The translations under genes and the position numbers were made by a program. A stretch of 57,727 nucleotides of DNA, taken from the IMG/VR virus record IMGVR_UViG_3300040959_000824, positions 1 to 57,727 of that record, one strand, 5' to 3'. Source of the stretch: a virus. The notes under the pieces are model-generated. The model was given only the letters and a program-made list of their open reading frames with translations. It was not told the DNA's origin and ran no database searches. This document shows positions 1,415-45,619 of the stretch, one piece after another. The first letter of the stretch is position 1. Each line of letters opens with the position of its first letter.

Positions 1415-4400
1415 ATGTTAGAAAAACTCAGATCGGCAGTGCTCGCAGTAAATAGTCATAGTGAGCTGCTATCGGTCTTTAACACCTACTCCATATCCAT
1501 CACACCCACCAGCACCAAATCAGCCAATGCTCGCGTGAGAGCCAACGAATTAGCGCAGTCTATTCTCAAGCGCGTTAATGGCGACTTCAGCCAAATCACC
1601 GACGAAGAACGCGAACAACTCCGAGATTACACCGGTTGGGGCGGCATTGGGGGCTCAACCAATGAGTACTACACGCCTAAATGGGTAGCTAGTGCCGTAT
1701 GGGATGCCATGTCCGCGTATGGCTTTACTGGCGGCTCAATCCTTGAACCGGCTTCAGGCGTGGGCGTATTCAGCGAAACCAAACCAAATAACGCGTTAAT
1801 GACCTCGGTCGAGATGGACCCGACCAGCTCAGCCATTAACCAGATTTTACACCCGGAAGACAACGTGATCTCTAGTGGCTTTGAGGCCATCGCCATGGAC
1901 CCGAACGTCGGAGGTTTTGACGTTGTAACCGGCAACCCGCCATACGGCGATCGTTCAAGCACTATTGCTCAAGATGGCGAATACAAGGACATTAAGAAGA
2001 ATGAGCAATACTTTGTACTCCGTTCTATCGACAAGGCTAAACCCGGTGGCCTGATCGCCCTAGTCCTTCCAACTCAAATTTGTGATAGCAGCAAACTGAA
2101 GAAATTCCGCACGCGTACAGCCATGAAAGCGGAGTTCTTAGGTGCGCACCGTCTGCCTTCTGGTGTATTTGATGGCTCAAGCGTAGTGACTGATCTTGTT
2201 ATCTGGCGCAAACACTCTGAAGAGGCCGCAGAGCAGATCGCTAACGCGGACCCGGCAACGCTAACCGAATCTAATGTGCTTTGGTCTGACTGGATCAACG
2301 GAAAGTGGTTTGAGCGTGACGGATTGCGCTTTATCAATGGCTCGCAAACTATCGGTTTCCAAGGCCGCAAGCTGGTGGACCGTGGCAACCGCTCTAATGA
2401 GCAAATTGCTAAGGCACTCTCCCACAAGTTTGAATCTCGCATTGAATGGGACCAACTGGATACCGTGGAACCTATTAGCGAGCAATACAGCGACGGCGAT
2501 ACCATTTTCCATAACGGCCAACAAATGGAATACGACGGCGGCCAATGGCACGCTGTACAAGCTACAGAGCAACAAAAGACCCTAGATGGCGCTACGTATG
2601 GCATCGAGCATTTAGATAGCATAGGCGACGCCACCAGCACGACTAAGGCCATGAGCCAGCTCACCGCAGAGCAAGCTATCTCACTGAATGACGATTACGG
2701 CCATCTTTGCCATGGTGAATTCAAAACCATCGTAGCCAACATCAAAAAGCTTCCACCACGTTCCCGCGAAAAAGCGTACAAAGGGATCTTGCTTGGCAAA
2801 CAGATTGAGCAGTATCAAAACCTGTTAGACTTGAGCCGAACGGATAGCGATATTGCCCTGAATGACGAGGAAGTTGCCACACTACGCAACAAGCTAGCCG
2901 CGAAAGTAATGGAAATGCACATGAAGCATGGTCGCAACTTACCGACCGGTATCAAGTCTATTGACGACAAACTTGCCGCGCATTGGATGCGTTATCAGGG
3001 CGCAGTCAGTAAAGACGGTCAATTGTCCGATCTGTTAACCGGCAATCTCGCCGTAGCTCAGTCAGAGCAATACGATATGTCACGCATTGATGATGTATTG
3101 CATTACTTTGAGCATGACCGAGGTATGGAAACCGTCAGATTGACGGACATTCGTTCTGTGTATCTCAATGAGGCCGCGCAACTGGATGATGATCAGCTGA
3201 TCAATCACCTTGCCGGGATGGAAAACGTCGCCGCTAACCGTGACGGCTCTTTCTCACCTATGCGTATCGCCACCAGCGGAAACGTGGCCGGTAAGAAACG
3301 CAATCTCACCGAGGCGATTGCTCACACGGACAACGAGACATTGCGCGCCAACTTCATGAAACAGATCAACACGATTGAGGAAAAGCGCGACGCTATTCCA
3401 ATCAACCAGATCAAGATGAAGTTAACGGATAAATGGATTCCCAAACACATCATGTTGGAATTCCTACAGGACCAAGGTTACACCGAGTTCCAGTTAGGCC
3501 GCTTTGTGACGGATGAGGACGGTTTTGAAGACTTTGTAACGGATGAGCGAGGCACTACGTTTACCGGGTACCGCTGGCGCGATGGCAAAAAGGTCAGCTC
3601 GCAAGGTGAAGAGTTCGAGCGACAAATTGAGTCTTATCTCAATTCTGGCGCAGTTCGTGGCGGCAGTGACAACGAACAAAAAGCGATTGTTCGTGAGCGT
3701 ATGCGTAATCTGGACCGTGACTTTACCAACTGGTGCGCATCGAGCGTGCACGCGGACGAACTTGAAGGCCAGTACAACGATATGTTTAACGGCTGGATTG
3801 AGCCAAGTTACGAAGGCACCGACATTGACCTTGAAGGCGTATCCGGGGCGATTAAGTTCATGCCTTACCAGAATTCTACTATCCGCAAACACGCAGCGGA
3901 CGGTAACGGCATTCTGGCGCTAGGTACCGGCTTAGGCAAAACACTGACTGCGCTTGGTTTGGGCCAATACCTTATCCAGACCAACAAAGCGAGCCGCATT
4001 GCTTATGTCATGCCTAAATCGGTCCTTGATAACTGGCTGTTTGAGTCGGATATCTTCTTTGGTGAATCGAATCTAGGCGACAAGGTATTTATTGGTATTG
4101 ATATCGAGCGCGACGACGGCAACATGGTCCGTGAGGTAGCCCTTGATGAAGATGGCAAGCCTCGCACTGACGCCAACGGCAACGCCATTAAACGACCAAA
4201 AGTGAAGGTGAACACCAACGGCAAGAAGATTGCTGAACAACTTCACAACCTCGCGCAGAGCTCCGCAAAAATGGTCTTCATGACCAAGGACGTTTACAAC
4301 TCTATCCCGCTCAAACCGGCTACGATTGCAGATAACGTCGAAAGTATGGTGGATGCTGGCCTTGTTGCTGGCTCAAACAAGTACGCCAAAGAGGCGAATA

Positions 4401-7400
4401 CGTACCGTGAAGCACAGAAAAACGCCAAGTTTGAGCAAAAGCACGCAGATGAAGGTACCAAGAAGAAAGAAACCCTCCCTTTCTATGAAGATCTGTTATT
4501 TGACAGCGTGATTGTGGACGAAGGACACGATTTCCGTAACAGCTTCAAAATGGGCGGCTACGGCAACCGACTTGCTTACCTGCCAAACTCCGCACAAGCC
4601 AACCGCGCACTTGATATGCAGATGAAAAATAACCACATCAAGTCACGTAATGATGGCCGTGGTGTTTACATGCTGACAGCGACGCCAACGGTTAACAGCC
4701 CGGTTGATTTGTTCAACATGCTGTCTCAGGTATTGCCACCAGAAACACTGGCAAAAATGGGCATTGTGGACGCGGACGACTTTATTCGTTTGTTTGGTCA
4801 CACCGGCGAAACCGCAGTTACCAAGTTATCGGGCGAAGTGGATACGCGCGAGGCATTGCTAGGCTTCCAGAACCTAGACGCACTACGCAATATCTTTAAA
4901 CGCTACACGACGGCCATGTCGGCTGAAGACGTGCGATCTGACGTACACGTCCCTACTCTCAAAGCCATGACCAACGCGGTTGAAATGAGCGAAGAGCAAA
5001 AGGCCGTGTATGAAGAGCTCCGCCAGCGTGCCGACGCACTGAGTAACCCGGACGAACCTGAAAACCAAGATATCATCGAGCAGTACCCGAATGACTCTGT
5101 ATTCAGCCTGATCCGCATGATGGACAAAGCGAACACGGATATGGACCTTTACCATGCCGTGATCACTTACCGATTCAAGAAAGGCGATAAAGACAAGCTT
5201 CAGGAAGCGATTGATAAACTACCGAAAACTATCAAAGTTCGTCAGCCTAAGCTCGATGGCGAAGGCGAGCCGGTCCTTAATGCCGCCGGTCAAATGACCA
5301 TGGAAGTGGTCGAGATTGATGCTAATTACGATCTGGATACGGACGGCAAGTTCTTAACGCTCAAACTCGCGCAAGAACTGGACGGCCAATTCAGCAAGCT
5401 ATGCAGTGACGCTGGTCTGAAATTCTCGCACCCGGTATCACCGAAATACGCCAAGTTCCTAGAAAACGCTAAGACGGCTTATCTCGCTGGTGGCAAGCAA
5501 TTGGTATTCACGGAAGAGAAAACGCAGCACGTTAAATTGGCTCGTATCATAGCGGACTATATCGGCTGTGATATCTCAGAAATCGGGATCTTGAATAGTG
5601 ACACGGTATCGGGCAAGAAAGGCTCTAAAGCGACGGAAGACGACGAAGAGGCGGGATTGGCTGCGCTTGAGAAAGCTTACAACTCAAGCCAATACAAATT
5701 CATGATCCTCAATAAAAAAGGTGAAGTGGGCGTGAACCTGCATCGTGGTACCACGGATATCCATCACCTTACTTTGCCTTGGACCCCATCTAGCTTGACT
5801 CAACGTAATGGCCGTGGCGCGCGTGTTGGCTCTAAAGCCTCTCAGGTGAACGTGCATTACTATGCCGGTAAGGGCTCGTTTGACCAATTCCGCATTGAAA
5901 CCATCGAGCGCAAAGCGAAATGGATTCAAGACTTGTTCAATGGTGGCGAAAGCTATGTTGAGAACGGCAGTGCAGACGATGGCAGCGATACCGCTATCAT
6001 GCTGGCCGCAGACCCGGAAGCAGCTAAGGCACGTATCGAGCAAGCACGCATCGAGCGCGAGCGTCGAATTAAACGTGAAGAGCAGCGACAGGCCGCTATC
6101 AACGTCAGCAAATACGTTCAGGCTTCTATTGCTGCAAATACGGACCTAGAACCTATCCGCCAACGCTTAGCCGAGCTGGTGGATGAAATCGACAACCAGA
6201 CCGAGAAGACCCGCGACGCAGAAGAGCGCGCCAAAGGTGAAAAACGCAGTTCGTGGGAGTACAAGCGATTCAAAGATGAAAAAGATCGTCTGTTCACCCT
6301 GACGAAAGAGCGTGCGCAGCTTCAGAAGACCATCAAGCTTTCTGAAGAGGCCGGGAACACCATTAAACGCCTGAAATCCGTGGTTGAGTCTTCTATTCAA
6401 GATGGAACACTGGCCGGTTACGACGATATCACCACACACCCGGAGCTGTACGCGACTAAAAATGGCGTTGTTCTGCGTAAAGGCTACACGTATCACGTCA
6501 ACGTACCAGCTTACTACTGGAAAGAAGACAGCGAGCATGACGAATACATCCTAACGCTGGATGAATTCAACCGCGCTGAAGGGACCGCAACCGGGATCAT
6601 CGTGAGCAAACCAAACGAGGCTAACCCGACCGCCAGCGCAGGTACCCGCAAATCCAATATCGCGTTTGAGAAGTGGTTTAAGTTGGCTGAGGTGAATCAT
6701 TCCGAGCAGGAACTTGCTTCACGCATTGCTAGCGGCATTCCGCTCAGTGCTATCCCAAGTACGATTGACCGTGAAACCTTCTTTGACTTCCACAAACGTG
6801 GTTTATTGGTGAAGTACGGCCACTACACCAAGCCACTGGTTTACGTGGATAACGGTCGCGTAAAACAACTAGACAGTATGGAATTGCCTGACGGCGCATT
6901 CCTGATCTACCCGGACTCAAGCGACCCATCGCTAATGAAAGCGTTAATCACGCAAGCCACCAGCGATCTAGAGCGCACCGGACGTGTAATGTTTGCTGAC
7001 CATGGCACTATCCGTGCTCTAGTTGGCGAAGACTGGATGCAACAAGCGCAAGCCGGTGGTAACACTGCATCACAAAGTGACGTTGTAGCCGCTGTACAAA
7101 AAGCGGTTGAAGCGACAGAGAGTGACGCGGAGAACCAGAGCGAGCTTAATGCCGGTCTGATTGAGGCCGCAGGGACTTACAGTGTTTCACGCATCAAGTT
7201 TGTGGAATGGGTACAAAATGAAGTAAACGCGATTAAGTGGGACGGCTATTCCAACCGTGACGAAATCAAGACACTCGTATCGGATGCCATGAAAGACTAT
7301 CGCAGCTCGTTTAAGGCGCGTGGTGAAGTCAAACGACAGGAAACCATTGATAAACTGTTTGCAGACTATATCGCCCTACTCCAAAGCGATCCGAGCCGCA

Positions 7401-8074
7401 AAGAGCGTTTAATCAAACTGAATGAAGCTATGCAGCGTCGCAAACGTAGTCATGACTTTATGAATGACTTAGACGAACTCTACCCGGATGACAATTCCGC
7501 TATTGTGTCTGTTTATGCTGACCTGACCATTACAGAGCGTCACTCTCAACTTGAGAACGGCGAGAAACTGCTAGCAACAAGCAGCTATTCACGTCGCAGT
7601 GCGCTAGATAAGTTTGATTCGGTTCGCTTGTCTTACCCGAACGTGTTCAGCCAGAAAATTGATGAACTGTACGGCGAGAAGGAAGTACCAGAGCCAGAGC
7701 CGGTGATTACCGAGCGCCAGCAAGAAAAGATTGAACAAATTCAATCGGTCGATTTTGACGGCATCGAGACACTTAAAACCGAACTGGCTAAGATTGGTAT
7801 TACGGTCCAACCGGTGACACAAGACATTTCTTGGAAGTACAAGCGCAAGACTATCTCTATCAAAGCTTACGCGGGTATTGGCCTTCAAGATATCAATGAG
7901 AAGCAAGGCGCACTCGCTAAGCTACTTATGGGATATAAGAACAAGGACAACAAAGAGAAGTACGGCGCACGCTTCAATAGTGACCCTAGTGAAGACTTTG
8001 CCGGTGCGTGGTGGTTCATTGACTCGGAGAGTGATCTAGAATCATTCTACAACGACATTATGGCCGCTGCTTAA
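1415..8074 (+). CDS. darB: DarB-like antirestriction protein: adenine methyltransferase fused to SNF2-type helicase
   Basis: This 2219-residue protein begins with an N6-adenine methyltransferase domain: DYTGWGGIGG near residue 71, the cofactor loop EPASGVGVF near 111 and the catalytic NPPYGD at 174-179. A superfamily 2 helicase follows: GTGLGKT near 837, DEGH near 1035, TATP near 1088 and QRNGRGARVGS near 1462. The C-terminal third is rich in charged coiled coil. Length and domain order match P1 DarB (about 2250 residues), a virion protein that protects DNA from type I restriction in cis. A clear GAGG site precedes the ATG. The methylase-helicase fusion is certain; the antirestriction role and symbol are inferred from P1. 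Confidence 0.8.
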   Translation: MLEKLRSAVLAVNSHSELLSVFNTYSISITPTSTKSANARVRANELAQSILKRVNGDFSQITDEEREQLRDYTGWGGIGGSTNEYYTPKWVASAVWDAMSAYGFTGGSILEPASGVGVFSETKPNNALMTSVEMDPTSSAINQILHPEDNVISSGFEAIAMDPNVGGFDVVTGNPPYGDRSSTIAQDGEYKDIKKNEQYFVLRSIDKAKPGGLIALVLPTQICDSSKLKKFRTRTAMKAEFLGAHRLPSGVFDGSSVVTDLVIWRKHSEEAAEQIANADPATLTESNVLWSDWINGKWFERDGLRFINGSQTIGFQGRKLVDRGNRSNEQIAKALSHKFESRIEWDQLDTVEPISEQYSDGDTIFHNGQQMEYDGGQWHAVQATEQQKTLDGATYGIEHLDSIGDATSTTKAMSQLTAEQAISLNDDYGHLCHGEFKTIVANIKKLPPRSREKAYKGILLGKQIEQYQNLLDLSRTDSDIALNDEEVATLRNKLAAKVMEMHMKHGRNLPTGIKSIDDKLAAHWMRYQGAVSKDGQLSDLLTGNLAVAQSEQYDMSRIDDVLHYFEHDRGMETVRLTDIRSVYLNEAAQLDDDQLINHLAGMENVAANRDGSFSPMRIATSGNVAGKKRNLTEAIAHTDNETLRANFMKQINTIEEKRDAIPINQIKMKLTDKWIPKHIMLEFLQDQGYTEFQLGRFVTDEDGFEDFVTDERGTTFTGYRWRDGKKVSSQGEEFERQIESYLNSGAVRGGSDNEQKAIVRERMRNLDRDFTNWCASSVHADELEGQYNDMFNGWIEPSYEGTDIDLEGVSGAIKFMPYQNSTIRKHAADGNGILALGTGLGKTLTALGLGQYLIQTNKASRIAYVMPKSVLDNWLFESDIFFGESNLGDKVFIGIDIERDDGNMVREVALDEDGKPRTDANGNAIKRPKVKVNTNGKKIAEQLHNLAQSSAKMVFMTKDVYNSIPLKPATIADNVESMVDAGLVAGSNKYAKEANTYREAQKNAKFEQKHADEGTKKKETLPFYEDLLFDSVIVDEGHDFRNSFKMGGYGNRLAYLPNSAQANRALDMQMKNNHIKSRNDGRGVYMLTATPTVNSPVDLFNMLSQVLPPETLAKMGIVDADDFIRLFGHTGETAVTKLSGEVDTREALLGFQNLDALRNIFKRYTTAMSAEDVRSDVHVPTLKAMTNAVEMSEEQKAVYEELRQRADALSNPDEPENQDIIEQYPNDSVFSLIRMMDKANTDMDLYHAVITYRFKKGDKDKLQEAIDKLPKTIKVRQPKLDGEGEPVLNAAGQMTMEVVEIDANYDLDTDGKFLTLKLAQELDGQFSKLCSDAGLKFSHPVSPKYAKFLENAKTAYLAGGKQLVFTEEKTQHVKLARIIADYIGCDISEIGILNSDTVSGKKGSKATEDDEEAGLAALEKAYNSSQYKFMILNKKGEVGVNLHRGTTDIHHLTLPWTPSSLTQRNGRGARVGSKASQVNVHYYAGKGSFDQFRIETIERKAKWIQDLFNGGESYVENGSADDGSDTAIMLAADPEAAKARIEQARIERERRIKREEQRQAAINVSKYVQASIAANTDLEPIRQRLAELVDEIDNQTEKTRDAEERAKGEKRSSWEYKRFKDEKDRLFTLTKERAQLQKTIKLSEEAGNTIKRLKSVVESSIQDGTLAGYDDITTHPELYATKNGVVLRKGYTYHVNVPAYYWKEDSEHDEYILTLDEFNRAEGTATGIIVSKPNEANPTASAGTRKSNIAFEKWFKLAEVNHSEQELASRIASGIPLSAIPSTIDRETFFDFHKRGLLVKYGHYTKPLVYVDNGRVKQLDSMELPDGAFLIYPDSSDPSLMKALITQATSDLERTGRVMFADHGTIRALVGEDWMQQAQAGGNTASQSDVVAAVQKAVEATESDAENQSELNAGLIEAAGTYSVSRIKFVEWVQNEVNAIKWDGYSNRDEIKTLVSDAMKDYRSSFKARGEVKRQETIDKLFADYIALLQSDPSRKERLIKLNEAMQRRKRSHDFMNDLDELYPDDNSAIVSVYADLTITERHSQLENGEKLLATSSYSRRSALDKFDSVRLSYPNVFSQKIDELYGEKEVPEPEPVITERQQEKIEQIQSVDFDGIETLKTELAKIGITVQPVTQDISWKYKRKTISIKAYAGIGLQDINEKQGALAKLLMGYKNKDNKEKYGARFNSDPSEDFAGAWWFIDSESDLESFYNDIMAAA

Positions 8075-8127: not shown

Positions 8128-8535
8128 ATGATTACTAAAGTTGAGTTACCGACGCCTGAAGCACTTAAGCCACTGCGTGACGAAGCGTTAGAAGGCACCA
8201 CAGCGGACGAATGGACGACTAAGCACTTATTGTCGATTACGTCATTACTGAGTGAGCATCCCCTCTCCTATCGCACGTATGGCCCTTACTGGTGGTCGAT
8301 TAAGGCGCTATTGAAAGAGCGCGGTTTTGATTACGGCGAAGACGACGAACCGGTCACGCGTGAACACTTCAGCTACGCGGACCCGGTTGATTTGATTTGC
8401 GCGGCGTGGGCTTATCAACAACACATCGTGGACATGCAGATCATTGGTTTTAACATTCATCCATTCACAATTGATGATGAACCGTTTGATTATTCCATCG
8501 AAGACACCGACCTAGAAGCAGCCCCATACCTTTAA
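8128..8535 (+). CDS. Hypothetical protein following the DarB-like gene
   Basis: A 135-residue acidic protein with no motif I recognise. TTTGAGGAATTTAT before the ATG is a good ribosome binding site. Tryptophan and tyrosine are frequent in the middle (TYGPYWWSIKAL near residue 52), and the C-terminus is strongly acidic. It is separated from the DarB-like gene only by the 24-bp palindrome and is followed by a hairpin at 8542, so the two genes probably form one rightward transcript. A role connected with the DarB-like protein is suggested by position only. Confidence 0.6.
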   Translation: MITKVELPTPEALKPLRDEALEGTTADEWTTKHLLSITSLLSEHPLSYRTYGPYWWSIKALLKERGFDYGEDDEPVTREHFSYADPVDLICAAWAYQQHIVDMQIIGFNIHPFTIDDEPFDYSIEDTDLEAAPYL

Positions 8536-8621: not shown

Positions 8622-8807
8622 GATATCCGTAATGATATCTAAATTGATATCACAATAAATATCTAAAGTGATACCTTTCTAGGTATCCTTGTATATATCA
8701 ATCAAGATATCTTTCTTGATACAAGTAACGGTATCCACTATGATACAACGATTGGTATCATTTTGAGTTTAAGTAACGATATCCATCTAGATATCACTAG
8801 GGATATC
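8622..8807. repeat. Partition-site array 1a: GATATC-type hexamer every 12 bp
   Basis: Hexamers matching or close to GRTAYC begin at 8622, 8634, 8646, 8658, 8670, 8682, 8694, 8706, 8718, 8730, 8742, 8754, 8778, 8790 and 8802; the one missing position, 8766, is degenerate but the phase is kept. The hexamer is palindromic (GATATC, or GGTATC/GATACC as a pair). It lies directly upstream of parA, as expected of a centromere that also serves as operator for the partition operon. It could also be an iteron-type origin, but no initiator gene is adjacent. Confidence 0.85.
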
Positions 8808-8845
8808 GAAGCTCACACCAATGCAAACAACTACACACTAATATT

Positions 8846-8875
8846 GATATCAATCAAGATATCCCATTCGATATC
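8846..8875. repeat. Partition-site array 1b next to the parA start
   Basis: Three perfect GATATC hexamers at 8846, 8858 and 8870, again spaced 12 bp, ending 27 bases before the parA ATG. The offset from array 1a is 44 bp, which breaks the phase, so this may be a separate operator that controls parA. Confidence 0.8.
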
Positions 8876-8902: not shown

Positions 8903-9688
8903 ATGAGAAAAATCATGATTACCGCTAGAAAGGGCGGCGTTTGTAAAACAACTATCACTGTAAACTTGGCTTACACTCTGGCAAGGCTAGGGAAGAAAGT
9001 TTTAATTATCGACCTTGACGCACAGGCCGACTCAACCAAGTTTTATCGCGCTGGTCGTTCGGACTTTTACATTGGCGACGTACTACTTGAGCGCAAATTT
9101 GACATAAGAAAAGCAATCTACAAGGCGCAGGTAAAAGGCGAAGAGTTGGAGAATTTACACATCATTCCGGGCCGACCTAATGACGAAATGACCGTGCTTG
9201 ACAGACAAGTTTTCTCACTAAGTCGAAGCGAAGAGAGGCTAACTTACCAGCTTAACAAGCTCGATACTGACGAATACGACTTCCTACTTATCGACACATC
9301 ACCAACGGCCACTACGCTATCCATGAACGCAACCATGGCGTGTGACGAATTCCTTTTCCCTACCGATTTTACCGGCCTGTCTCTGGATGGCATCGACTCT
9401 ATTATTGAGCACATTCAAGATCTCAAGCTGATTGAGGAAGATGAAATCAACTTCCTTGTGGTGCCGTCATCTGTAGATAAGAAGTCGGTTAAAACGGTTC
9501 GCTATGGTGAGGAATACATCGCGGCCAAATATCCAGACAACCGAACTAAAACCGTGATCTGGCAAAAGCCAGCCATTTTTAACGAGGCGGTATTGCGATT
9601 CCTGCCAATCGCAGCGATCAGCAATTCCGACATTTCATCTATTCACTACAAAGAACTAGCTCAAGAGGTACTTGATAATGTCCTTTAA
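8903..9688 (+). CDS. parA: ParA-family partition ATPase
   Basis: A 261-residue P-loop ATPase. The deviant Walker A reads KGGVCKTT at residues 10-17, the second acidic motif IDLDAQ at 36-41 and Walker B LLIDTSP around 128-134. Such proteins form ATP-dependent patterns on the nucleoid and pull plasmids apart through a centromere-bound partner. The length and absence of an N-terminal helix-turn-helix place it with the short (type Ib) ParAs, where the partner, not ParA, represses the operon. Cys14 replaces the usual glycine, a tolerated position. It is flanked by 12-bp phased repeats on both sides and overlaps the next gene by 11 bases, indicating translational coupling. Confidence 0.92.
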   Translation: MRKIMITARKGGVCKTTITVNLAYTLARLGKKVLIIDLDAQADSTKFYRAGRSDFYIGDVLLERKFDIRKAIYKAQVKGEELENLHIIPGRPNDEMTVLDRQVFSLSRSEERLTYQLNKLDTDEYDFLLIDTSPTATTLSMNATMACDEFLFPTDFTGLSLDGIDSIIEHIQDLKLIEEDEINFLVVPSSVDKKSVKTVRYGEEYIAAKYPDNRTKTVIWQKPAIFNEAVLRFLPIAAISNSDISSIHYKELAQEVLDNVL

Positions 9689-10088
9689 TCAAAAATTGTA
9701 CGACGAACTATGCGAAAAGCGAGCTAGCGGAGTAGGGCTTAGGCCAGCGGAAAAAGCGGAACTCAGCAAGCTAGAAAAAGAGCTACGTCGCAGCAATAAG
9801 CCAGCTCAGGAAGATAAACAGCCAGAAACAAACATTCTAGGCGCAAAAAATAACAGCGATAATGAGAAATCACCTAAGCTAATTCGCTTTGTTCAAGTGG
9901 AAAGACGCGCACTAAAAACGCGTCGTGAATCATTGTTAGCAGACTCGCCAGACGACGTTAAAGAGGCGTTAGGTTCAGTAAAAGCAGCCAGTGAAGATTT
10001 GCTGGTTAGAGCTGCCGTGCTAAGCCTATCAAGGCTTTCCGACAAAAAGCTCATTGCACTAATGAAAGAAGCTCAAATGAATTCGTGA
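9678..10088 (+). CDS. Candidate centromere-binding partner of ParA (ParB-like in function)
   Basis: A 136-residue, highly charged protein. The ATG at 9678 is preceded by AGAGG nine bases upstream and overlaps the end of parA; a TTG six bases earlier is possible but less well placed. The N-terminal part (LRPAEKAELSKLEKELRR) is helical and basic, the C-terminal half (LVRAAVLSLSRLSDKKLIALM) amphipathic. It does not resemble P1 ParB. Position and size match small centromere-binding proteins of type Ib systems, which bind repeat arrays and repress the operon. DNA-binding fold and role are inferred. Confidence 0.65.
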   Translation: MSFNQKLYDELCEKRASGVGLRPAEKAELSKLEKELRRSNKPAQEDKQPETNILGAKNNSDNEKSPKLIRFVQVERRALKTRRESLLADSPDDVKEALGSVKAASEDLLVRAAVLSLSRLSDKKLIALMKEAQMNS

Positions 10089-10224
10089 TATCTGTGTTGA
10101 TATCATTTCAGATAACAAAAGAGATACCCAAAGCGGTATCTCTTTTTATATCTTATGTGATATTTAATTGGGTATCATTGATGATATATATACAGATATC
10201 AATTTAGATATCATTCAAGATATC
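10087..10224. repeat. Partition-site array 2: GATATC-type hexamer every 12 bp
   Basis: Twelve units start at 10087, 10099, 10111, 10123, 10135, 10147, 10159, 10171, 10183, 10195, 10207 and 10219 without a break in phase. The array starts one base before the end of the parA partner gene and runs into the last codons of the convergent polyvalent gene. Having arrays on both sides of a partition operon is unusual. Confidence 0.85.
10117..10146 (+). terminator. Terminator of the partition operon, built from array units
   Basis: AAAAGAGATACC and GGTATCTCTTTT form a perfect 12-base stem with a 6-base loop followed by T's. Its arms contain the fourth and fifth hexamers of array 2, so the same DNA serves as both repeat and transcript end. 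Confidence 0.75.
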
Positions 10225-12053
10225 TTTCCTCGCTTGGCTGGCAACGCTGCCGCCGGGGAATAAATCCACTCCATGAAGTCGGCCATTAGCATAGGTACCA
10301 CGGCACCCAACCCGGACCAATCATCACTGTAGTTAGATAGGTAGGCTTGTTTCGCTTCAGACGGACTATGAAAACCGAGCATTACCTTGTGTTCATCAAA
10401 CGCCCCGGAGTCGGGATCGACCTGATTTATCACGTAAGCATACTTAGGCTTTTCATTCTCACCTAAGAACACATCCACTTCGTCACCGTCCGCACCTTGC
10501 GAGCCATAGATATAACCGTAATGATGATTCATGCGGGTACGCCATTCCACGCCGTTCGCGTCGGTTCCTTTGCGGTCACTGCCTTTTGGATTCTCAATTT
10601 CAACCGGCAAACCAGCAAAGCGCAATGACCCGGTTTGGTAGTCATTGTTTTCTAGCTGTTCCTGCGTGGGTTCTGGCAAGTCGTTTTGTGGGGATGTGGC
10701 CGCTTTGTTAGCGAGCTCATCAATACGTGCTGACTCAAACATAAAGCCACCTTGCCCGGTTTGCTGCTCTTCCAAGCGTTGGCCGACTTGCGAGAGCACT
10801 TCAATTAACGTCACCTCACCACCACCAAACATATCACCAATGGCGCTACCATCTTTGCGGAGCTGTTCATTGATAACGTTCGCCAGTTCTTTAAAGGCTT
10901 CAGCCATGCGCTTGGCACTGCGATTGTTCGCAGAGATAAACCGGGCGAGGGCTTCCACTTCAGGATCGTTGTCACCAAACAACCCCGATTGCGCGATCAG
11001 TTCGTTAATGTCCTGTCCGCTGTCTTTTGCCTGTCTGACAAGCTCAGTCGCACTCACAAGCGAGTTAAGCGCCTTATCGGCTAATGACTCATCTTGCGAC
11101 TCAACACCGCTTACAATGCCATCTGACACCGATTTATGGACCACACCGTCTAGGTACTGCATTTCTACAAACTGACTGGCTGAACTGTTGAGCGCATTCA
11201 GAATGTTTCGAATTTCTGGATCAGGCTCTTCCGCCACCAGCTTAACCAGTCTGTCATTCTTGTACGCCTTGGCAAAGATGGCGTTTTGCATGCGATCTAG
11301 TAACTGGCGGGTAGGGCGACCGTCAGACGTCACCAGACCGGCGGCGGACGTATCACCAAGCGCACGCATGAACGATTGTACAAATCCATCATTACTGCGC
11401 GCTAGCAAGCTGCCAGACTCGGACGGCGAGAGTAGGGCCATCATTTTATCGTCCATGACTTCAGCATCGACCCAAGCCGTTTCTGACGCGCTCATTTGCT
11501 GCAAGTCAGAAAGGTTAGAATCACGCGCAAACGTGGCCCGGTCCATTTCGGTTAATCGTTCACGCACTAACACCGGCTTATCCATTCCTTTCACGACGTC
11601 AGAATCAAAGCCAAAGCGTTGAGCGTTATCAATTAAATACTGGCGATAATCATCACCCTTACTGGTGCTGTAGGCTTTCAAAATAGCCATGGTTCGACCG
11701 TTGCCAGACTCCACCACCAGATCGGGACCAACAATAGGCGCACCATGCGAACTAAGGCCGCTATCAGTGAGCTGTGCCGGTCGCAGGTTCCCGGCCATCT
11801 TGTCAATCTGCATTATCGAAGCTTTACGCGTGCGGTCGCGTGGCTGTAATTCTTCCGGGAACGCGGGGTTAATTTTGCCATCTGGCGTATTAGATGGAAT
11901 AAGTTGATCCGCCTCGACCAACTTAAACGCGGTTTGGACCTCATCACCTTTGGCCGTGACAACAAAACTATCCCGGCCTTTCTGACTGGCACCGTCAAAC
12001 AGTGCCAGTAGTTCAGAGAATGATTTAGCCCGTTGAATTGAGGCTAGAATCAT
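10215..12053 (-). CDS. Polyvalent protein with DdrB-type ParB-like domain and pyrophosphatase-like domain
   Basis: A 612-residue protein. Residues about 68-220 resemble the ParB-like domain of P1 DdrB, with LQPRDR, GNGRTMAIL near 117 and an RERLTEMDRATFARDSN stretch. The last 130 residues carry the inorganic pyrophosphatase signature DGDEVDV at 522-528 with surrounding strands, a domain known from phage and conjugative polyvalent proteins. Such proteins travel with DNA into a new cell and protect it. It is the last gene of the holin-led operon and its start overlaps the preceding stop (ATGA). Whether either domain is catalytic is unknown; the signature aspartates are present. Confidence 0.7.
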   Translation of the reverse strand: MILASIQRAKSFSELLALFDGASQKGRDSFVVTAKGDEVQTAFKLVEADQLIPSNTPDGKINPAFPEELQPRDRTRKASIMQIDKMAGNLRPAQLTDSGLSSHGAPIVGPDLVVESGNGRTMAILKAYSTSKGDDYRQYLIDNAQRFGFDSDVVKGMDKPVLVRERLTEMDRATFARDSNLSDLQQMSASETAWVDAEVMDDKMMALLSPSESGSLLARSNDGFVQSFMRALGDTSAAGLVTSDGRPTRQLLDRMQNAIFAKAYKNDRLVKLVAEEPDPEIRNILNALNSSASQFVEMQYLDGVVHKSVSDGIVSGVESQDESLADKALNSLVSATELVRQAKDSGQDINELIAQSGLFGDNDPEVEALARFISANNRSAKRMAEAFKELANVINEQLRKDGSAIGDMFGGGEVTLIEVLSQVGQRLEEQQTGQGGFMFESARIDELANKAATSPQNDLPEPTQEQLENNDYQTGSLRFAGLPVEIENPKGSDRKGTDANGVEWRTRMNHHYGYIYGSQGADGDEVDVFLGENEKPKYAYVINQVDPDSGAFDEHKVMLGFHSPSEAKQAYLSNYSDDWSGLGAVVPMLMADFMEWIYSPAAALPAKRGKIS

Positions 12054-27947: not shown

Positions 27948-30900
27948 TTACTCCAAGTCTGCGCTTTGGCGCTGTAGTGAACGGTCAGTAAAGTTATTTG
28001 GAATGCTACCCACCCCAGGATTGTTTGATTTCGGCTTGGCTGCACTGCCGGTTGACTGGCTAGCGCCCACCTCAACGACGGTTGTGTCTGCATTGGCTTT
28101 CTTGATGCCTTTCGCCAAATCGTCCACGCTTTTCTTATCCAGTTGGATAACGTTAGGCTCTTTGCTCTTCTGTAGCTCCGCTTGCGCTTTTTCGGCCTGA
28201 AGTGAACTGACAGAACGGTTAGTCTGAACCTTGCTTACACTGCTGGTAGGTTGCAACTTAGTGATCCCGCCCGTAGAGCTCAAGTCAGTCACGCCACCAG
28301 AGGAACTCAGGCTAGTAATGCCACCTGTTGAGCTCAAATCTGTGACACCACCAGTTGAACTAAGGCTAGTCACCCCGCCCGTTGAGCTTAGGTCCGTAAC
28401 GCCACCCGCAGAACTTAAGTCAGTAACACCACCTGCGGAACTCAGATCAGTAACTCCGCCCGTATAACCTAAGTCAGTGACACCGCCAGCAGAACCCAAG
28501 TCAATCACACCGCCTTCAGGACTTAAGTTGGTAATCCCACCAGCGGAATTTAACTCAGTCACACCCCCGGACTTATCCAACTTAGTTACACCACCCACAG
28601 CGGCCACTTTAGCGACTGGCATGCCATCCACTTGTTGCTGTTGTGCGTTTTGGTATCGTTCTTTGGTTTCTTTAATCTTCTCTAGTCGGTCCTCAACACG
28701 CTTGGAGCGAGCATTAGAAGGTTGACTCTCACCTTGCTGAACTTCACTGCTTTCCGCTGAAGAACTCGCTACACTCGATTGCTCGGTCTGCTTCAGTGAT
28801 TCAGAACGCGCCTTCATTTCGAGGTTTTTCTCTTTCTGCTTGGCGACCTTCTTAGCCACGGATAATGGCATTCCACGACCGACCAAACGATCGACTTCAT
28901 CTTGATAAGAGCTCGATGACTGCGACTGACTCACGGTAGCGGCCTTGCTGTCTTCCTGCTTTGATTCACTCGATGACTTGCTGGTAAAGAGATCGTAAAT
29001 ACCTTTCGCAATATCACTTGCTTCAAAGGTCATTTTCTCTTTGGCACCTTCGAACCCTAGCGCGCCTAGTGCGTCACCCACCAGACCCGCAGCACCCGAC
29101 ACCAGACCACCCATATCAAGCACGGACCCTGCCGCCATGGCGGCTTTCTGTCCGGTTGTCGCCTCTTCCCCTTCTTTGAGGTTAAAGGTTTTCTGTTGGG
29201 CCTCTTTGTCGTTAAATCCACTGTACGCGTCATAGGCTGCAAGCATAGGCGCAAGGAACGGCACGGCTTTACCTGCCCCTCTGGCGAGTGTCGATACTCC
29301 TTTAAAGGCTTTCCCTGCCATGGACATGCCACCAGCGGCAATACCTGCTCCTTTTTTACCGGTAGCACTTAGGACCGACTTTAATCGGCTAGGGCTTTCT
29401 GGCTTGCCAACACTTACGCTTCGGCTAGGACGTCCGCGACCGCGCTCGCCACCACCAAACAAGCCACCACGACCACGGCCCCGACGCCCACGACCGGCAC
29501 GACCACCGCCGCCACCGAATAGCGAACCCAAACCGGCCAATTCTGATAAGAGCCCATTATCTTTTCCTTTCGTGTGTGAGCTGATTTCATCCAGAAGAGC
29601 AATGATTTCCGCGTTCGATTGCTTTTGCTCTTCGCTTTGCTCTTGCAAGATCTCTTTGTTGTTCGCTTGCAAGGACTGTTGCTTGGTGATCGACAATAGC
29701 GACTCGCCACCGGCTGGCTGATTAGGTTCAGACTTTGCTTGTGTCGCACCGGTCGCCATACCTGCCATGGCATTACCAAATGACTGCGTAAACCCGGTAG
29801 ATTGAGCAATGCTTTGCGAGTCACTGCGATCTGTCAGCTTCGAGTCAGACTGAACCCGGTTCGACTGCTGCGTTTTACTCTCTGCCAGCTCTTTAATGCT
29901 GGTGGCTGTGTCACTTTTCTTTTCTGATTCAGACTGAGCAACGACGCGATCACTCTGCCCGACTGTCTCAAACGCGGAGCTGGCGCGGTCGCTTTGTGTG
30001 ACCGTATCCGATTGTGAACGGGTGCTTTCCTGCTTGGAGATTTCAGCTCGTTCACTTCCTTGCGGGACCACTTCGGCGCTCGTAAATGCTTCTTGAGTCT
30101 CTTTGTCTTTGCCAAAGAACCGGCCAAACGAAAAGGCATCACTCGACGTCCACTGCTTTTTGATCTCACTGGTTTTGTCTACAGCGGTATCAATGCCCTG
30201 AATGACGTTTTCACCGACGTTATACAGTTCTTTTGCTGCATAGAACCACGAACCACCAGCAGCGGCCCCGGCTGCGTCGGTCGCGTCATTGTTTGCGGCC
30301 TCATGCCCCACATCTACAGCGGCCCTGAAGGTGCCCACCACCTTAGTTAGAATCGTGGATTGCTTCTCAGACTCACGCTCTTTGGCAATATCGGCTGCGG
30401 TCTTTTGGTACCGGGCGCTTTCTTCCTTGCTGGCGTAGGTACCATTGCCACGACGTAACCGGCCCTTTTCATCTTTCCAGAAATCATCAAACGCGCTAAA
30501 ACCGTCTGTAATGGCTTTTTTAAGTGAATCCGTATCAACATCAGGCGAATCAACGTTAACGCTCACAGGCTGCGATTCTGACGCATCCTTGCGGTCATTT
30601 TGGCTAGCTGGTGGCGTAACTACGACCGTAGGCGCTTTCGGATCGGATTTTGGTCCTTCCTGCTGCGCTGGCTGCAAGCTGTCTGCGACCGACGACGGAT
30701 TCGTTAATTGCGGTTCAACGGTCCCGGCCTCGCCTTCCTCTGCTTGAGTAAAACTATCTTGCTGCTTGCGCTTTACCAGTTGCGCGGTCACTTCACCACG
30801 ACGGGCTTTAGCGTTGTTTTTTTTGCGTCTTTTGGGTTTGTTATTAGGAATTGAAGGGGCTTTTTTGCCACCTTCCATCACCTGATTCTCACCACTGGAA

Positions 30901-31031
30901 ACCACACCTACCCCGACCGGCTGATCGAGCTTGGCGCTAATCTCAGACAACACCTTTAATTCTCGGTCGCTGGCGTGCTTTATCGAATCAACCACCAGCG
31001 ACAAATCAATCTCTTCGTGTTCAATTGCCAT
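27948..31031 (-). CDS. Tape measure protein candidate, with RGG-like and nonapeptide repeats
   Basis: A 1027-residue protein, the only long one between the tube/chaperone genes and the wedge genes, which is where the tape measure that sets tail length lies. It starts with a basic KPKRRKKNNAK segment, continues through Ser-Gln-Asp-rich low complexity (about 300-470), a Gly-Arg tract (504-534), hydrophobic helices (577-657: KAVPFLAPMLAAYDAYSGF), helical charged regions, and thirteen GGVTDLSST-type nonapeptides (808-928). The repeats and Gly-Arg tract are unusual for this family, so a different internal virion role cannot be excluded. Confidence 0.55.
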   Translation of the reverse strand: MAIEHEEIDLSLVVDSIKHASDRELKVLSEISAKLDQPVGVGVVSSGENQVMEGGKKAPSIPNNKPKRRKKNNAKARRGEVTAQLVKRKQQDSFTQAEEGEAGTVEPQLTNPSSVADSLQPAQQEGPKSDPKAPTVVVTPPASQNDRKDASESQPVSVNVDSPDVDTDSLKKAITDGFSAFDDFWKDEKGRLRRGNGTYASKEESARYQKTAADIAKERESEKQSTILTKVVGTFRAAVDVGHEAANNDATDAAGAAAGGSWFYAAKELYNVGENVIQGIDTAVDKTSEIKKQWTSSDAFSFGRFFGKDKETQEAFTSAEVVPQGSERAEISKQESTRSQSDTVTQSDRASSAFETVGQSDRVVAQSESEKKSDTATSIKELAESKTQQSNRVQSDSKLTDRSDSQSIAQSTGFTQSFGNAMAGMATGATQAKSEPNQPAGGESLLSITKQQSLQANNKEILQEQSEEQKQSNAEIIALLDEISSHTKGKDNGLLSELAGLGSLFGGGGGRAGRGRRGRGRGGLFGGGERGRGRPSRSVSVGKPESPSRLKSVLSATGKKGAGIAAGGMSMAGKAFKGVSTLARGAGKAVPFLAPMLAAYDAYSGFNDKEAQQKTFNLKEGEEATTGQKAAMAAGSVLDMGGLVSGAAGLVGDALGALGFEGAKEKMTFEASDIAKGIYDLFTSKSSSESKQEDSKAATVSQSQSSSSYQDEVDRLVGRGMPLSVAKKVAKQKEKNLEMKARSESLKQTEQSSVASSSAESSEVQQGESQPSNARSKRVEDRLEKIKETKERYQNAQQQQVDGMPVAKVAAVGGVTKLDKSGGVTELNSAGGITNLSPEGGVIDLGSAGGVTDLGYTGGVTDLSSAGGVTDLSSAGGVTDLSSTGGVTSLSSTGGVTDLSSTGGITSLSSSGGVTDLSSTGGITKLQPTSSVSKVQTNRSVSSLQAEKAQAELQKSKEPNVIQLDKKSVDDLAKGIKKANADTTVVEVGASQSTGSAAKPKSNNPGVGSIPNNFTDRSLQRQSADLE
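28247..28606 (-). repeat. 27-bp repeat tract coding for thirteen nonapeptides
   Basis: Thirteen diverged units with the pattern GG(V/I)TxLxxx, the six central ones closest to GGVTDLSST. At DNA level the units differ mostly at third positions, so the tract is not freshly expanded. Regular hydrophobic spacing every nine residues suggests a solenoid or a fibrous rod. Confidence 0.8.
30841..30853 (-). promoter_or_regulatory. Perfect CAATTCCTAATAA motif inside the tape measure gene
   Basis: Exact 13-base match, read in the direction of the gene and located near codon 60, where it encodes SIPNN. It could drive an extra transcript for the downstream wedge and fibre genes, or be chance. Confidence 0.4.
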
Positions 31032-44672: not shown

Positions 44673-45029
44673 TTAATCTAACTCAGATACCGGGATGCAG
44701 GGTATTCCTATTCGTTCGGCATAGGTCTTTTCTGACAGTGCACCTTTGGAATGCTGGTACCCATCCAGTAAAGCTACCACGTCGGCAGCTCGCAGCATGG
44801 CAATGCCAATATCCATATAAGCGGCATCCGTCAGACCTAGCGGCAGTATGGCCGGGTTTAATACGATGTAACCACGTTCTGCAAGCTCACTAGCAAGCTG
44901 GTTAAACGCGGCGTGGTTGTAGTTCTCCAATCCCGTCATAGGACCAGAGATATAAACGACGGGCTTTTTAGCTGGTGGCTTAGGCGCTGCGCCCTCTGGT
45001 TCTTGCTGCACTGCGATGCGATCAATCAT
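44673..45029 (-). CDS. DUF4406-type nucleoside-deoxyribosyltransferase-like protein
   Basis: A 118-residue protein. VVYISGPMTGLENYNHAAFN near residue 24 and the ADVVALLDGYQHSKGA segment near 84 are characteristic of DUF4406, a Rossmann-like family related to nucleoside 2-deoxyribosyltransferases. It may hydrolyse modified nucleotides. It is out of place among baseplate genes, so it resembles an inserted accessory gene. Its start overlaps the preceding stop by one base. Confidence 0.75.
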   Translation of the reverse strand: MIDRIAVQQEPEGAAPKPPAKKPVVYISGPMTGLENYNHAAFNQLASELAERGYIVLNPAILPLGLTDAAYMDIGIAMLRAADVVALLDGYQHSKGALSEKTYAERIGIPCIPVSELD

Positions 45030-45619
45030 TATAGGTACGTCACTCCGTTATTCTCTGTCATGGTATCTTCTGTGATATCACTTGTGGTATCTGAACTGGT
45101 ATCACTACTGTTATCTGGCGTGATATCGCTAGGGGTATCGGCGGAGAAATCACGCATAGGCACGCACGCGTAGAGACTACCGACATTCGCCGTGCCAAAG
45201 CCTAAGATTTGTTGCACGTACCAGTACACCGTCCTTATACCGTCGGCGGTTTCTTCGTCCCACTCAAGCGCGGACCCACGCGGCACACTATCACTGGCAA
45301 TGCGCAGCAATAACACCCCGTCACCTTCACCTAAATTGGCCTCTCCGCTGTCCTGAACAAAGAAAGACTCCATCTCGTCCGGGCATTCCAATACCGCAAC
45401 ACGTTCGTAATCGTCGTACTCCAAAGTTTCTTGGTTGACGTCTACGTTGATCACCTGTTGCTCTTCGTAGTTCTCGCCACCAGCATCAATACTTTTGGTT
45501 GGCCGGTACAGGAACGCCTCAAACGAATCAGGAGAAAGCGCAATCGCATTCATCCAGTCGCGCCTTACTGCGGCGTTTAGTGCCTCATGACCGTTAAATC
45601 TGGCTTTTCTTACTGTCAC
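45029..45619 (-). CDS. Structural-cluster protein whose C-terminus is built from a partition-type DNA array
   Basis: A 196-residue protein. The first 155 residues look folded (YWYVQQILGFGTANVGSLYA near 135) but belong to no family I know. Residues about 161-188 are seven tetrapeptides (SDIT, PDNS, SDTS, SDTT and similar), encoded by the 12-bp repeat array at 45062-45139, whose GATATC-type hexamers are read as Asp-Ile, Asp-Thr or Asp-Asn. The tail is then a flexible acidic extension that exists because of the DNA repeat, or the array has been accommodated there because it does no harm to the protein. Confidence 0.65.
   Translation of the reverse strand: MTVRKARFNGHEALNAAVRRDWMNAIALSPDSFEAFLYRPTKSIDAGGENYEEQQVINVDVNQETLEYDDYERVAVLECPDEMESFFVQDSGEANLGEGDGVLLLRIASDSVPRGSALEWDEETADGIRTVYWYVQQILGFGTANVGSLYACVPMRDFSADTPSDITPDNSSDTSSDTTSDITEDTMTENNGVTYL
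45062..45139. repeat. Partition-site-like array 3 within a coding sequence
   Basis: Seven GATATC-type hexamers at 45062, 45074, 45086, 45098, 45110, 45122 and 45134, at the same 12-bp period as the arrays at 8622 and 10087 and with the same variants (GGTATC, GATATC, GTTATC). It is 35 kb from the partition genes and read through in frame by the gene at 45029. Confidence 0.8.

Follow-up and report, generated by a model that had tools for sequence, protein, structure and literature searches.

A GATATC-type repeat array within the gp7 tail gene of a P1-like phage-plasmid, a probable distant partition site

The window (the whole 57,727-nt stretch of viral DNA that was analysed) carried a partition (par) locus with arrays of GATATC-type hexamers at both ends, and a further array of this motif was located 35-36 kb away from the par arrays, inside a homologue of the P1 tail gene gp7. 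Segments with a 12-bp period were scored with a matrix built from the 31 hexamers of the par arrays, which were delimited by eye. The features were as follows.

8622-8807, no strand assigned: upstream par array, 16 units at 12 bp, one of them degenerate (matrix score 128.3)
8716-8744, plus strand: candidate parA promoter, TTGATA-17-TATGAT, inside the upstream par array (consensus match only)
8846-8875, no strand assigned: second upstream par array, three GATATC units at 12 bp, out of phase with the first (matrix score 31.5)
8903-9688, plus strand: parA, encoding a short ParA ATPase of 261 aa, a type Ib length (phrog_164 ParA-like, E = 3e-42; AAA_31, E = 2e-34)
9672-10088, plus strand: parB candidate, 138 aa, overlapping the end of parA (assigned from its position after parA, where its homologues are also placed)
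10087-10224, no strand assigned: downstream par array, 12 units at 12 bp (matrix score 105.1)
45029-45619, minus strand: homologue of the P1 gp7 tail (stability) protein, 196 aa (phrog_1906 tail protein, E = 1.5e-59)
45032-45145, minus strand: residues 159-196 of the gp7 homologue, forming its C-terminal tail, which is hypervariable among relatives (pLDDT about 30, from a model that is weak overall)
45062-45151, minus strand: GATATC-type array of eight units at a 12-bp period, inside the gp7 homologue (matrix score 65.8)
L081:18209-18262, in the rest of the genome: weaker GATATC-type array, five units at 12 bp (matrix score 38.3)

All other segments scored 17.8 or less.

The window was identical to IMGVR_UViG_3300043015_002666 over 54,227 bp, and its right end ran into the left end of that record, showing a circular unit of 85,885 bp. 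When IMG/VR was scanned with ParA, ParB and gp7, only one record with this par system was recovered, and it was identical to the window; the array evidence covers one genotype. The tail and baseplate genes were P1-like (gp7, a phrog_1722 tail gene and baseplate wedge homologues), and the closest structural relative found was the Vibrio alginolyticus HNV2 plasmid NZ_CP082309.1. Judged by its P1-like structural genes and circular genome, the element is a P1-like phage-plasmid and not an N15-like telomere phage; its host would be of Vibrio type, going by the relatives only. The initial annotation had taken N15 as its model, which was wrong as to kind: in place of the linear genome and protelomerase of such a phage, the genome was circular and the 612-aa ORF beside par (10215-12053) encoded a protein with ddrB-ParB and inorganic pyrophosphatase domains. 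This protein also matched parts of large phage proteins, including a DarB-like antirestriction family. A 2219-aa protein with SNF2 helicase and Eco57I-type methylase domains (1415-8074) was followed by a Ulx-like anti-restriction gene (8128-8535), and coding repeats of 27/54 bp were present at 28259-28569, within a 1027-aa ORF (27948-31031). A Vibrio-like P1-type tail gene was also seen in PBAS01000007.1, which is binned as a Phycisphaeraceae MAG and is probably a mis-binned phage-plasmid.

The par locus had the make-up of a type Ib system. Its ParA was within the size range of short ParA proteins lacking an N-terminal DNA-binding domain (about 192-308 aa), with the AAA_31 match running from residue 1, and the small protein encoded directly after it (138 aa) had no HTH-type ParB domain; repeat arrays were present at the operon on both sides (8622-8875 and 10087-10224), the upstream set ending 28 bp before parA. 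A P1-type (Ia) partition system, with a long ParA carrying an N-terminal domain and an HTH ParB, was rejected at these protein lengths (261 and 138 aa). ParA shared 44-54% identity with ParA of Vibrio and Shewanella plasmids, on which homologues of ParA and of the 138-aa partner stood together, the partner again after parA. No family match to the parB candidate was obtained in Pfam, PHROGs or NCBIfam, nor any match in PDB, and its single-sequence model was all-helical (pLDDT 68, pTM 0.25), too weak for a fold search. The plasmid relatives of ParA and ParB used other sites, either TGTATAG...CTATACA pairs or GTATAC units at 14 bp, so that they were of no use as controls for GATATC. The nearest ParB relative found (44%) had TATAC units upstream of parA, spaced 12, 12 and 13 bp (spacing read by hand). 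Three Vibrio plasmid par loci (L019, L021 and L218) had GTATAC/TATAC units at 14 bp, or at 12-13 bp in L218, showing that the family varies in both motif and spacing.

In the gp7 homologue, seven strong units (GGTATC, GATATC, GGTATC, GGTATC, GTTATC, GATATC and GGTATC) started exactly 12 bp apart, at 45062, 45074 and so on to 45134, and occupied 45062-45139; an eighth unit, GAAATC at 45146, kept the 12-bp period. The gene read the strong units in frame on the minus strand as GAT ACC, GAT ATC or GAT AAC (Asp-Thr, Asp-Ile or Asp-Asn), with one Asp per four residues across the array (tail sequence FSADTPSDITPDNSSDTSSDTTSDITEDTMTENNGVTYL). In the coding sense the eighth unit was GAT TTC, an Asp-Phe at the end of the core, and the seven strong units lay beyond the part aligned with P1. 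The initial annotation had reported the seven hexamers, their likeness in variants and period to the partition arrays about 35 kb away and their reading as an acidic tetrapeptide tail; each of these was confirmed, with the eighth unit added. It had also judged a chance match to be very unlikely, and the counts agreed. Two-hexamer matches in the whole window numbered 54, compared with 0.42 expected. When all 4,096 hexamers were tested, GATATC formed the longest period-12 chain outside par, and the only chains of at least six units outside par were shifted or one-letter variants of the gp7 array. A scan of 228 Vibrio genomes (~1.1 Gb) for four-unit GATAYC arrays with at most one mismatch returned three places, all of them GATACC microsatellites. 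A general over-representation of GATATC was rejected, as it occurred 47 times outside arrays against 50 expected, indicating no genome-wide bias. Besides the par arrays, the gp7 array was the sole array in the window.

The gp7 homologue was 44% identical to P1 gp7 over residues 5-158. The gp7 of the HNV2 plasmid was 70% identical and had kept the tail, the last residues (ENNGVTYL) being common to both; its tail held neither GATATC-type hexamers nor SDxT units, and the par genes of that plasmid were of another type, with longer ParA and ParB genes (1248 and 954 bp). Other Vibrio relatives had PE-rich tails or stopped right after the core, and most of those with a tail had an acidic one. On the Photobacterium damselae plasmid p1_510, the gp7 homologue continued into a long fused C-terminal extension, in a CDS of 3,516 bp. 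Since the tails of relatives were PE-rich, absent or replaced by a fused extension, the gp7 tail is free to vary; it is hypervariable, dispensable and probably disordered. An SDxT-type tetrapeptide was found in none of the gp7 relatives compared. Relatives that keep the peptide and lose the hexamers had been named beforehand as evidence against a DNA-level role, and none was seen: HNV2 was without both.

Synonymous codons were permuted within genes in 3,846 replicates, with genes called mechanically as the longest ORFs. The score of the gp7 array was reached in none of the 3,846 permutations; the maximum was 56.7 in the gp7 tail and 33.4 at any place other than par and the gp7 tail. When synonymous codons were drawn from the codon usage of the genome, the seven dipeptides were all within one mismatch of GATATC in only 50 of 200,000 draws. 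Asp was encoded by GAT at seven of seven positions in the array, compared with 5 of 13 in the gp7 core. Permutations and codon-usage draws thus gave the hexamers rarely or never, showing that the peptide does not account for them. Codon and repeat statistics indicate that the gp7 array was shaped at the level of DNA and not of protein.

The second coding array was found 13.5 kb to the left of the window start, in the middle of a gene for a 154-aa protein (L081:18094-18558). Its score was reached outside par and gp7 in none of the 3,846 permutations. Unlike gp7, this gene read the hexamers in the frame xxG ATA TCx, giving E-I-S, A-I-S, T-L-S, E-I-A and R-I-F. In the HNV2 counterpart, two of the five hexamers were exact (GATATC in both cases) and a third had two mismatches (GATAAG); the remaining two differed, one of them by synonymous changes only (GAG ATT GCA, compared with GAG ATA GCG here). 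The array was absent from the more distant relatives compared. Because HNV2 has no par system of this kind, the second array carries less evidential weight than the one in gp7. On this comparison, part of it is either not related to par or a relic, HNV2 already having hexamers without the par system.

As a ParB-bound operator or roadblock, the gp7 array might damp transcription of the late tail operon during lysogeny, in the manner of omega, which acts at several pSM19035 promoters; we regard this as unlikely, although it deserves some weight. The next gene started (45029) 33 nt past the edge of the array, a distance similar to the 28 nt that separated parA from the upstream par array, and the omega arrays of pSM19035 overlap promoters (PMC5016525). 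However, no promoter-like site was seen when the gp7 array was searched for one, whereas such a site lay inside the upstream par array, a difference that would favour partition over an operator. The position of the second coding array in mid-gene also argues against an operator.

A coding minisatellite, in which a 12-bp SDxT unit expanded by slippage in a permissive tail and its likeness to the par hexamer is coincidental, is improbable. It would suit a tail that is hypervariable and may be absent, GATACC-based 12-bp coding repeats (DTxx) do occur in unrelated phages, and the gp7 spacers were slightly more alike than shuffled ones (0.36 vs 0.26). However, minisatellites repeat the whole unit, and in unrelated viral contigs with the same hexamer and period and at least five units (arrays based on GATACC or GATATC), the spacers were 61-100% alike in every one of at least 20 arrays, a set that is not random since the pattern scans required three exact units and only the matches listed were compared. 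In the gp7 array the spacers were 32-36% alike and the hexamers 0.85-0.89. The spacers of the par arrays were 0.32-0.33 alike, with par and gp7 hexamers 75-89% alike; the respective values for the L081:18209-18262 array were 19% and 80%. The low spacer likeness indicates that the gp7 array resembles the par arrays and not minisatellites. Further, the conserved hexamer was that of par, out of 4,096, and both the codon tests and the Vibrio background (about three per 1.1 Gb at no more than one mismatch) speak against slippage. The suggestion in the initial annotation that the repeat had spread into a gene with a tolerant C-terminus was upheld as to tolerance, the tail being hypervariable and sometimes absent in relatives. 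Recent copying from the par arrays was rejected, because the gp7 spacers matched no par array better than shuffled spacers did (best match 15/36, equalled by 56% of shuffles).

It is very unlikely that the gp7 array is bound by another phage or host DNA-binding protein instead of ParB: the ParB candidate has no recognisable DNA-binding family, but the strongest arrays lie exactly at both ends of parAB, and homologous par loci also carry short repeats on either side, with a different sequence. Selection for a tail whose acidic SDIT/SDTT repeats serve the virion, with the hexamers as a by-product of codon choice, is barely credible, for the acidity common to most Vibrio tails is set against a tetrapeptide found in no relative (the HNV2 tail differs and others end right after the core), synonymous permutations that fail to produce the array, and a second coding array that reads the hexamer in another frame.

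The gp7 array probably provides the small ParB with a further set of binding sites far from par, embedded in the codons of the acidic and dispensable gp7 tail. The dispersed centromere proposed earlier is supported at the DNA level, where the peptide offers no explanation, the array is not minisatellite-like and the gp7 tail of HNV2, with its other par system, does not contain it; the N15-type kind of centromere is not. Arrays of the par motif do lie far from par, in gp7 (45062-45151) and, more weakly, at L081:18209-18262. Along the array, ParB dimers may occupy the palindromic hexamers cooperatively. Should the pSM19035 mechanism apply, a run of at least four contiguous units would be enough to engage ParA, and the gp7 array has seven to eight. 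Its role would then be that of an auxiliary centromere, which adds to the main site 36 kb away, clusters with it or pairs with it. The gp7 gene may tolerate the array because the Asp-Thr and Asp-Ile repeats would keep the tail acidic and unstructured. A tentative extension, which is possible but doubtful, is that selection for ParB binding shaped the codons both of the disordered gp7 tail and of the second gene in another frame, so that a virion gene doubles as a centromere and three partition clusters stand around the circle (gaps of 23, 36 and 27 kb); segregation might thereby be coupled to late-gene silencing. A few replicons are known to have dispersed partition sites, most of which lie at promoters or in intergenic DNA. 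Codon statistics and the comparison with minisatellites marked this array as a DNA signal, providing a simple search route in other phage-plasmids, and the gp7 tail allows a direct test of whether a DNA-binding protein has shaped a protein tail.

Among known systems, P1 and the HNV2 plasmid have homologous tail and baseplate genes, and HNV2 shares the tail end; however, HNV2 differs in its longer ParA and ParB genes and in having no array in gp7. The par2 locus of pB171 is alike in layout, with two sites, parC1 and parC2, one on either side of parAB; distant coding arrays go unmentioned in the passages of PMC4270457 on which this comparison draws. N15 is also a plasmid prophage with several mutually distant centromere sites (IR1-IR4, four IR sites; PMC7205306). 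However, it is a linear telomere phage with F-type SopA/SopB and single long inverted repeats, whereas the present element is a circular P1-like phage with a short ParA, a small ParB and hexamer arrays. The delta/omega system of pSM19035 resembles it in having long arrays of short repeats as parS and several sites per replicon (PMC9499535, PMC5016525), and four or more contiguous repeats are needed there (PMC9499535). Its repeats are contiguous, non-palindromic 7-bp heptads at promoters, whereas those described here are palindromic hexamers spaced at 12 bp in coding sequence; omega is an RHH protein. The Myxococcus plasmid pMF1 differs in its motif (AGATGTCT), its few copies per site, its extra ParC gene and in being a plasmid and not a phage; the passages of PMC3235114 drawn on here contain no codon-level analysis of its ORF-internal sites. 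According to these passages, however, its parCAB is likewise a type Ib par system, in which ParB iterons flank par and sit elsewhere on the plasmid, some of them inside distant ORFs, and all are bound by ParB.
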